Shown here: piece after piece, positions 57,375-58,710 of the stretch | Numbering within the stretch: position 1 is the stretch's first letter | Layout: each line of letters begins with the position of its first letter | NCBI RefSeq assembly: GCF_002288265.1 | Contig: NZ_CP016778.1 | Span: forward strand, 992,001 to 1,056,000 | Length of the DNA: 64,000 nucleotides | Direction of reading: 5' to 3' | From: Candidatus Planktophila versatilis | GTDB lineage: Bacteria; Actinomycetota; Actinomycetes; Nanopelagicales; Nanopelagicaceae | Notes under the pieces: generated by a model | Told to the model about the DNA's origin: nothing | The model's database searches: none | The model's input: only the letters and a program-made list of their open reading frames with translations | Translations under genes and position numbers: made by a program

Positions 57375-58262
57375 TTAAGCGCCGATTGCCTGCTTGATTT
57401 CAGAACAGGCGAGCGCTAAATCCTCAGCAAAGGCAACCTCTTGGCATTGATCTCGGTCCCAGCCAGGGCCACCTAGGACAACTCGCGGGGCTGGGCGAAC
57501 ATTCGGAATTTCCTTAAAGAATTTAGGATCACCATTTTTTGCTAACTGAGCCCAGAGAAATACAGCAGGTGGGGCGCTGCGAGTTACGACCGTAGATAGC
57601 GCTGCCAGCGGAGTTCGCGCCCCCATTACCTGACATTCGATATTCAATTCAGCAAGTGCGGCGGTAAGTGCATGCAAAGCTAGACAGTGCAGCTCCTCCC
57701 CGACAGATGCCAGCAGCACCGGACGAGGATTGATAGGGCTCTTAATCTCCCTTGAGAAATCACGCAAAACATTTGTGATTGATTCCGAAAGTAAGTGCTC
57801 TACTTCAATTCCTTCACCAGTTTGCGCCCAGATATCGCCAACGATAATTAAGACCGGAACCATGACCTCATGCCAACTATCAATGACTCCGAATTGAGAA
57901 ATTTCCTGACGCAATAGCGCCTCAACAAAATTGTGATCAAGTGATTGCGCAGCGCTCACAATCGCATCCACCACATCAGAGCGCTCGTGAACCGTCTCTA
58001 CGATCTGCTCCAGGTTAAGACTGCCCTTATGAGATAGGGCTTGTTCGGCAGCCTCTGCCGGACTCACTCCGGCAACAATCAACCGTCGCATCATGATCAA
58101 TTTGGCGAGGTCTTGCGGGAGATACTTACGATGCTCACCGGCTTCGTGGCCCGATGGACCAAGGCCATATCTGCGGGCCCAGGTGCGAAGAGTTGCCGGG
58201 GCTACGCCAATCCGGCGAGCCACCGCCGCCACGGTGAGTTTCTCTTCACCTATGGCAGCCAT
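57375..58262 (-). CDS. MerR-type regulator with C-terminal B12-binding domain, CarH/LitR-like
   Basis: The 295-residue protein has an N-terminal MerR winged helix (TVAAVARRIGVAPATLRTWARRYGL, residues 10-34, HRKY wing), a four-helix segment and a C-terminal Rossmann-type cobalamin fold. The CarH photoreceptor signature W-x9-EH is present exactly (W145, E155, H156), and the lower-ligand motif appears as E190-x-H192. In CarH these residues cap and bind adenosylcobalamin, whose photolysis releases DNA. The residue after Trp is Ala, where T. thermophilus CarH has His132. It faces the whiB-family gene across 145 bases. Light sensing is inferred from motifs. Confidence 0.85.
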   Translation of the reverse strand: MAAIGEEKLTVAAVARRIGVAPATLRTWARRYGLGPSGHEAGEHRKYLPQDLAKLIMMRRLIVAGVSPAEAAEQALSHKGSLNLEQIVETVHERSDVVDAIVSAAQSLDHNFVEALLRQEISQFGVIDSWHEVMVPVLIIVGDIWAQTGEGIEVEHLLSESITNVLRDFSREIKSPINPRPVLLASVGEELHCLALHALTAALAELNIECQVMGARTPLAALSTVVTRSAPPAVFLWAQLAKNGDPKFFKEIPNVRPAPRVVLGGPGWDRDQCQEVAFAEDLALACSEIKQAIGA

Positions 58263-58320
58263 GACGTAATCCTGTCGGAAAGTGGCTCAACTCACCACCT
58301 GAAAAACGGACATTTTGGCC

Positions 58321-58371
58321 CTTGAACAAGACACGGAACGATTGCCTCTTGAACAACCTATGAAACGATTG
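58321..58371. repeat. Tandem direct repeat in the MerR-B12 / whiB intergenic region, candidate operator
   Basis: Two 24-base units at 58321-58344 and 58348-58371 (period 27) share CTTGAACAA at the left and AACGATTG at the right, with a divergent 7-base middle. Viewed finer, this is four head-to-tail (G/A)AAC(A/G)A sites spaced 12, 15 and 12 bases. TTGAACAA fits the nTnnACAn half-site that I recall for T. thermophilus CarH. The right-hand unit contains the -35 box of the whiB promoter. Confidence 0.7.
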
Positions 58372-58377
58372 TATCCT
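58349..58377 (+). promoter_or_regulatory. Candidate promoter of the whiB-family gene
   Basis: TTGAAC (58349-58354) and TATCCT (58372-58377) are separated by 17 bases. Transcription would begin near 58384, leaving a 24-base leader with GGAG at 58397-58400. The whole -35 and spacer lie inside the second direct repeat, so a protein bound there would block RNA polymerase. Confidence 0.6.
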
Positions 58378-58407
58378 CTGAGATCCCTAGGGAAAAGGAG
58401 AACCATC

Positions 58408-58710
58408 ATGGCTGAACTATCACGACTTCCTCAACCTATTGCTGAGCAATGGGAATGGCAGTACCAAGGTGCCTGCCGATCGATGGACTCTGAGAAGTTC
58501 TTCCATCCTGATGGAGAACGTGGACCCCGTCGTCGCAATCGCGAGAATGCCGCGAAGACTATCTGCGCATCATGTCCGGTCATTGCAGCCTGCCGCGCCC
58601 ACGCGCTCGCCGTCCAAGAACCCTATGGAATCTGGGGCGGTCTATCAGAAGATGATCGCAGCGCAATCTTGATACAGCGCGGCATACCAGTTATTTCACA
58701 CGCATCATAA
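58408..58710 (+). CDS. WhiB-family iron-sulfur transcription factor, WhiB3/WhiD-like
   Basis: The 100-residue protein, started at ATG 58408 with GGAG 7 bases upstream, has the four cluster cysteines (GACRSMD; ICASCPVIAACRAHAL), the WhiB3/WhiD-type FFHPDGERGPRRRNRE segment and the G[IV]WGG turn as YGIWGGLSEDDR. WhiB proteins carry a [4Fe-4S] cluster and regulate through the primary sigma factor. WhiD is needed for late sporulation in Streptomyces and WhiB3 responds to redox in mycobacteria. The position between groEL and guaB is also the whiD position in Streptomyces. An open frame back to 58315 is not used because it crosses the promoter. Confidence 0.93.
   Translation: MAELSRLPQPIAEQWEWQYQGACRSMDSEKFFHPDGERGPRRRNRENAAKTICASCPVIAACRAHALAVQEPYGIWGGLSEDDRSAILIQRGIPVISHAS

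Follow-up and report, generated by a model that had tools for sequence, protein, structure and literature searches.

Results

A direct repeat between divergent merR and whiB genes

The window, which is the whole 64-kb stretch of DNA that was analysed, covers bases 992001-1056000 of a single-contig genome of 1,325,420 bases. In it, a MerR-B12 regulator gene (57375-58262, minus strand, 295 aa) and a whiB gene (58408-58710, plus strand, 100 aa) form a divergent pair around a repeat element. The product of the first gene is CarH-type by profiles and structure matches and is the proposed operator-binding protein; the product of the second belongs to the WhiB family by its Whib domain (Pfam, 1.5e-25). 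Judging from their translations, we take the genes behind merR-B12 to be guaB-like and the gene behind whiB to be groEL.

The repeat element consists of a distal unit, CTTGAACAAGACACGGAACGATTG (58321-58344, plus strand), and a proximal unit, CTTGAACAACCTATGAAACGATTG (58348-58371, plus strand), which are identical at 19 of 24 positions and lie 27 bases apart from start to start. This is the only pair with at least 19/24 identities at a spacing of 24-40 within the 64 kb, and the mean over 30 two-base-block shuffles of the window was 0.07 such pairs, so that the two 24-base units with a period of 27 reported in a preliminary description of this DNA are real. A general repeat search of the window, at its settings, did not list the 58321/58348 pair. 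The second unit carries the -35 element TTGAAC of the whiB promoter (58349-58354, plus strand), 17 bases before the -10 element TATCCT (58372-58377, plus strand; TAnnnT in relatives), again as first described. In the window the whiB start is preceded by a leader in which the Shine-Dalgarno-like AAGGAGA can be read directly (58395-58401, plus strand). In 33 of 59 unique genus loci, the aligned whiB start codon is only 6 nt after the -10 element, and whiB is therefore probably leaderless there.

Two further blocks were observed on the merR side of the repeat. The sequence AAAAACGGACATTTTGG (58303-58319) lies between merR and the distal unit; it resembles a third site and is nearly unchanged, as CGGACATTTyG, in a subset of relatives (e.g. 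L028-L030, L035-L037, L048 and L049). The block AAGTGGC-n-AACTCACCAC (58280-58300) adjoins merR, is conserved in most genus loci and may represent a promoter for merR or a further operator.

Half-sites in an 11-bp register

As found by comparison across loci, each unit is composed of a half-site TTGAnCAA followed by a degenerate half wTGnnnCG in an 11-bp register. In the distal unit these are TTGAACAA at 58322-58329 and a degenerate half at 58333-58340; in the proximal unit they are TTGAACAA at 58349-58356, which contains the -35 element, and ATGAAACG at 58360-58367. The TG at +11 from a TTGAnCAA-type site is present in 79/88 genus sites, 51/60 sites of named close relatives, 8/13 of other genera of the family and 33/60 of other families, and the CG at +16 in 85/88, 57/60, 10/13 and 30/60, respectively. 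The named close relatives are contigs titled, for example, Candidatus Planktophila limnetica or Actinobacteria bacterium IMCC26103, and a few of these titles look mislabelled. In one family (L057 and L058), two near-identical half-sites are found 11 bp apart, TTGCACAACTT|TTGAACAAGTT in L057 and nearly so in L058. Since the distal unit, which has no -10 element, also has the wTGnnnCG half, the conservation of this half is not that of a promoter, which shows it to be part of the predicted binding site beyond any promoter role.

The element had been described as four head-to-tail GAAC-like sites with the half-site of CarH. The head-to-tail arrangement holds, but the four sites are not equal, two being full half-sites and two degenerate; the GAAC-like cores would give a 12/15/12 register, whereas comparison places the sub-sites at 11 bp. 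Likewise, the likeness to the CarH half-site is borne out for the TTGAACAA halves, which contain TnnACA, but not for the wTGnnnCG halves. Compared with the CarH-type repeat nnnnTnnACAn, each unit thus has one full TnnACA and one degenerate repeat, with at most two repeats in tandem, in the 11-bp register.

Classical MerR activators bind a dyad in a spacer of 19-20 bp and act by untwisting the promoter spacer. The spacer here is 17 bp, without the long-spacer dyad, and since such a spacer needs no untwisting of the MerR type, repression appears likelier than classical MerR activation. We also considered a dyad reading of the element, ACAACC-N8-GGTTGT, which was dropped: the partial dyad ACAACC/GGTTGT of the genus shows no covariation and fades in other families.

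A single perfect site in the genome

In its own genome, the 19-base unit pattern is matched perfectly only at the 58348-58371 site. Since the unit occurs only once without mismatch, MerR-B12 would seem to have a single main target, as far as such pattern searches can indicate, and weaker or differently built targets are possible. When two mismatches were allowed, 30+21 matches were found in the genome compared to 23+24 for the control, and the distal copy is among the former. A genome-wide scan for 11-bp direct repeats of TGAACAA gave no excess (89+71 compared to 73+91 for the control). Near-matches recur elsewhere in the genus; the ten places that were fetched all lie inside long open frames, which presumably include RsgA-like and YvcK-like genes, and these matches were treated as chance.

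Conservation and loss within the genus

A strong MerR match was found in 51 of 61 genus genomes. Fifty loci (L001-L050) were aligned around the promoter, the 51st (L051) ending inside merR, and the proximal unit is present in all 50. Most positions of TTGAACAA carry 2 bits of information, as do TTGTA and both the TG and the CG of the second half. By pattern search the proximal unit occurs in 68 of 81 genus genomes and in 25 of the 26 that are complete and clean, compared to six matches in all for backward-read control patterns, one each in six of the 81 genomes. The promoter pattern TTGAAC-N17-TAnnnT is found in 59/59 unique genus loci, a count that is not independent of the score matrix used below, which was trained on L001-L050. 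Together with the overlap of the site with the -35 element and spacer, this conservation supports the earlier proposal of an operator overlapping the whiB promoter.

The distal unit is kept in 45 of the 59 unique genus loci, with 0.43 expected from shuffles, and its offset is either 26 or 27 (23 and 22 loci). Relatives that have the same gene pair thus keep the repeats, as the preliminary description would have it, but the spacing is not fixed at 27. In L002, the nearest relative with a different sequence (88% identical regulator), the distal unit is not recognisable.

In the ten genus genomes that lack a strong MerR match, no operator match was found, and WhiB matches, where there are any, reach 48% at most; most of these assemblies are incomplete. 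Three single-contig genomes of 1.2 Mb from a sister genus (G189, G216 and G276) have no MerR match at E 1e-40 and WhiB matches of only 46-49%. The combined absence of MerR and operator, with only a distant WhiB left in such genomes, indicates that the module was lost as a whole. A coupled loss of adenosyltransferase was considered and rejected, as the same three genomes keep PF01923. The genome of the window encodes a PduO-type adenosyltransferase; the CobA/BtuR type was found in none of 41 genomes, and the window's own genome is without a CobA-type enzyme.

The operator follows the merR-whiB pair across families

A class-wide search covered 296 genomes, of which 139 had a match at E 1e-40, and the loci were then fetched. 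Upstream stretches were scored with the genus matrix, and a locus passed when it scored above 200/200 shuffles. Duplicates were removed (38 upstream stretches), and loci without whiB on the fetched piece were left out of the counts (e.g. L009, L051 and the unlinked merR loci). The results show that all 11 unique loci from other genera of the family with merR divergent to whiB pass the matrix test, as do 45 of 53 such loci from other families (45-46 depending on the shuffles), compared to 0/27 whiB loci with no divergent merR on the fetched piece. This bears out the claimed tie between the operator and the divergent MerR-B12 gene. In the control set, 8 of the 27 loci have a WhiB with at least 60% identity to a query, and two (L107 and L111) are next to groEL; since so few have such identity or a shown groEL neighbour, most of this control consists of paralogues or genes of uncertain orthology. 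Conversely, of 18 merR homologues that are not beside whiB, 17 have no such operator upstream, and a weak one is found in L341, which suggests that the operator marks the merR-whiB pair and not the protein alone.

Eight of the 53 loci in other families did not pass. Four of these (L106, L248, L262 and L296) were reached by 1/200 shuffles. The other four (L060, L285, L299 and L300) have the merR-whiB pair without the operator, and in L060 and L285 its place is taken by GAACTTGTTCA and TGAACAAGTT in the opposite orientation.

Beyond the genus, the distal unit is found in 16/50 named relatives, 2/11 loci of other genera of the family and 5/48 elsewhere. In other families, 12 of the 48 loci tested have a back-to-back TTGTTCA-type site at a distance of exactly 17 bases upstream, and three have a further one at 28 (=17+11), with a null of 0.03 per distance. 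A second unit placed differently by lineage but at fixed distances would fit a single oligomeric protein.

In two loci of other families (L239 and L247), two 11-bp-spaced TGAACAA half-sites face merR (TTGAACAACTTATGAACAAG in L239). Since these half-sites face merR, this suggests that merR may be autoregulated in those families.

A CarH-like protein with an altered B12 motif

The product of 57375-58262 matches the MerR_1 and B12-binding families, and its best solved relatives are the TtCarH structures 3whp and 5c8d (Thermus thermophilus CarH/LitR, E 1e-13). The AlphaFold model (pLDDT 87.6) has a predicted CarH-like fold, with full-length chains of TtCarH at Foldseek ranks 1-12 (E about 1e-15 to 1e-13); 8jbs, from the cobalamin photoreceptor group, is also among the solved relatives and the Foldseek matches. 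Against the NCBIfam CarH profile, the protein scored 85.2 bits, which is below the cut-off of 400.

The motifs that define CarH are Wx9EH and ExHx2G-x41-SxV/T-x22-27-GG, as given in the consulted part of PMC8156234. The adenosyl-capping Wx9EH is present in the window protein (W145, E155, H156); among 17 aligned whiB-linked proteins, the Trp is kept in 15 and is Phe in two, while the Glu and His are found in 17/17, as is the His that serves as the lower (cobalt) ligand. The second motif is partly kept: E190-x-H192, GG at 264-265 and the x41 and x24 spacings are present in the window protein, and the E/D, H and GG hold across the alignment, but the glycine and the serine are replaced. The glycine of ExHx2G is A195 in the window and A or P in 17/17, and SxV reads W237-x-Q239, the serine being W, Y or H in 17/17. 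Both residues are also replaced in 18/18 actinobacterial homologues that are not linked to whiB. The position of TtCarH His132, which is the upper ligand in the light state, is A146 in the window and A, E, Q or Y, never His, in 17/17. Since the capping and ligand residues are kept, and since His132 is replaced here yet variable among photoreceptors, AdoCbl is the likely ligand of this protein, and a CarH-like light release of the whiB operator, which the preliminary description suggested together with repression in the dark, is possible.

Of the 18 unlinked homologues, 6 have no adenosyl-capping Trp; Gln or His takes its place in L325-L330 and L342. With this Trp replaced, those proteins may be unable to bind AdoCbl.

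Discussion

In this study, comparison of sequences points to the repeat as a real, deeply conserved control site that is most likely bound by the neighbouring MerR-B12 repressor. We consider it probable that the AdoCbl-loaded MerR-B12 protein represses whiB at this dedicated operator and promoter, and that the promoter is released once light or a falling B12 supply removes the AdoCbl form. In the proposed mechanism, the AdoCbl-loaded CarH-type protein would bind head to tail on the 11-bp-spaced TTGAnCAA and wTGnnnCG halves and would cover the -35 element and the spacer, so that RNA polymerase is blocked; the upstream unit would serve as a second, cooperative binding unit. Once the AdoCbl-bound form is lost, the promoter would be free and WhiB would be made.

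The main rival explanation is that MerR-B12 is a sensor of B12 status, which represses whiB when AdoCbl is plentiful, and that light has no physiological part. We regard it as the less probable account, but one to be taken seriously, since the Ado-capping and cobalt-ligand residues are kept while the His132 position is A, E, Q or Y in all 17 proteins. On the other hand, AdoCbl is photolabile anyway, which counts against a sensor of B12 status only. TtCarH with H132A is mostly tetrameric in light, according to the part of PMC10442372 consulted, which cites an earlier report as finding otherwise, and AdoCbl auxotrophy is predicted for one acI clade (part of PMC5574706), so B12 supply may vary; against this rival, cobalamin photoreceptors with Arg, Gln or Tyr at the His132 position are still light-responsive (part of PMC11796333). 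The replaced ExHx2G glycine and SxV serine, in 17/17 aligned and 18/18 unlinked proteins, would also suit a B12-independent regulator, whose domain does not bind corrinoid and which acts through a partner or another ligand, like CarA or class II LitR. We think this unlikely, as 15/17 whiB-linked proteins keep Wx9EH, with the x41 and x24 spacings intact, whereas 6/18 unlinked homologues have lost the Trp.

A further explanation is that another factor, such as WhiB, binds the site, or that the site is no more than a promoter under strong conservation. The near-invariant bases do fall mostly within a promoter; however, the spacer bases are as invariant as the promoter hexamers, the second unit has no promoter, and the site is absent at 27/27 whiB loci without a divergent merR, which together make this explanation quite improbable. 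That the period of 27 reflects nine codons, with an in-frame TTG start at 58315 extending the WhiB N-terminus through the open frame 58315-58710, can be virtually dismissed, since the unit and the aligned start codon are in different frames in 14/59 genus loci and 22/50 named relatives and this codon follows the -10 element by 6 nt in 33/59 genus loci.

The preferred reading, repression of whiB by AdoCbl-loaded MerR-B12, can be set beside known systems. WhiB3 and WhiD genes are located beside groEL in mycobacteria and streptomycetes, as the whiB gene is here, but the eight merR-less loci with at least 60% WhiB identity have neither a divergent MerR-B12 gene nor the operator. By its description in the material consulted, Streptomyces LitR is likewise an actinobacterial MerR-B12 light regulator that acts on a neighbouring regulator gene. 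The target of Streptomyces LitR is an ECF sigma factor gene and not whiB. The operators of CarH from T. thermophilus and Bacillus megaterium are 11-bp direct repeats (parts of PMC9304148 and PMC8156234). As portrayed in the source text consulted, these proteins share with the window protein the MerR DNA-binding and B12 domains, Wx9EH and the cobalt-ligand His, and their operators share head-to-tail TnnACA half-sites, the 11-bp register, the overlap with the -35 element and a tolerance of degenerate repeats. CarH differs in that it targets carotenoid genes and has three or four contiguous repeats, whereas the window site has two units 26-27 bp apart with wTGnnnCG as the second half-site, and the window protein does not have His132, the ExHx2G glycine or the SxV serine. 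The cobalamin photoreceptors CtMerR, SasPcob and AbDPcob also have a Wx9EH-type signature without His132, but they keep a GxxH signature, and the consulted part of PMC11796333 reports no link to whiB.

A search of the open-licence PMC literature found no link of CarH, LitR or MerR-B12 to WhiB, which does not establish its absence in print. Light responses are known in very abundant freshwater actinobacteria, and the consulted main text of a light/dark RNA-seq study of other freshwater actinobacteria neither mentions WhiB nor has MerR-B12 sensors on its list of those discussed (PMC8591293).

We tentatively propose, with rather less assurance than for repression itself, that merR and whiB form a two-gene switch in which a divergent CarH branch, whose corrinoid-tail pocket is altered and which has no bis-His light state, links light or coenzyme B12 directly to WhiB, an iron-sulfur redox regulator. 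This switch would occur in many actinobacterial families, each genome having one dedicated operator, and even the most streamlined freshwater bacteria would have kept it. The divergent B12 pocket lends itself readily to testing which features of the CarH light mechanism are indispensable. If the proposal is true, a single conserved site places a WhiB redox regulator under the control of a B12-based sensor, and iron-sulfur redox control in actinobacteria, among them very abundant freshwater ones, would thereby receive an input from light or B12.
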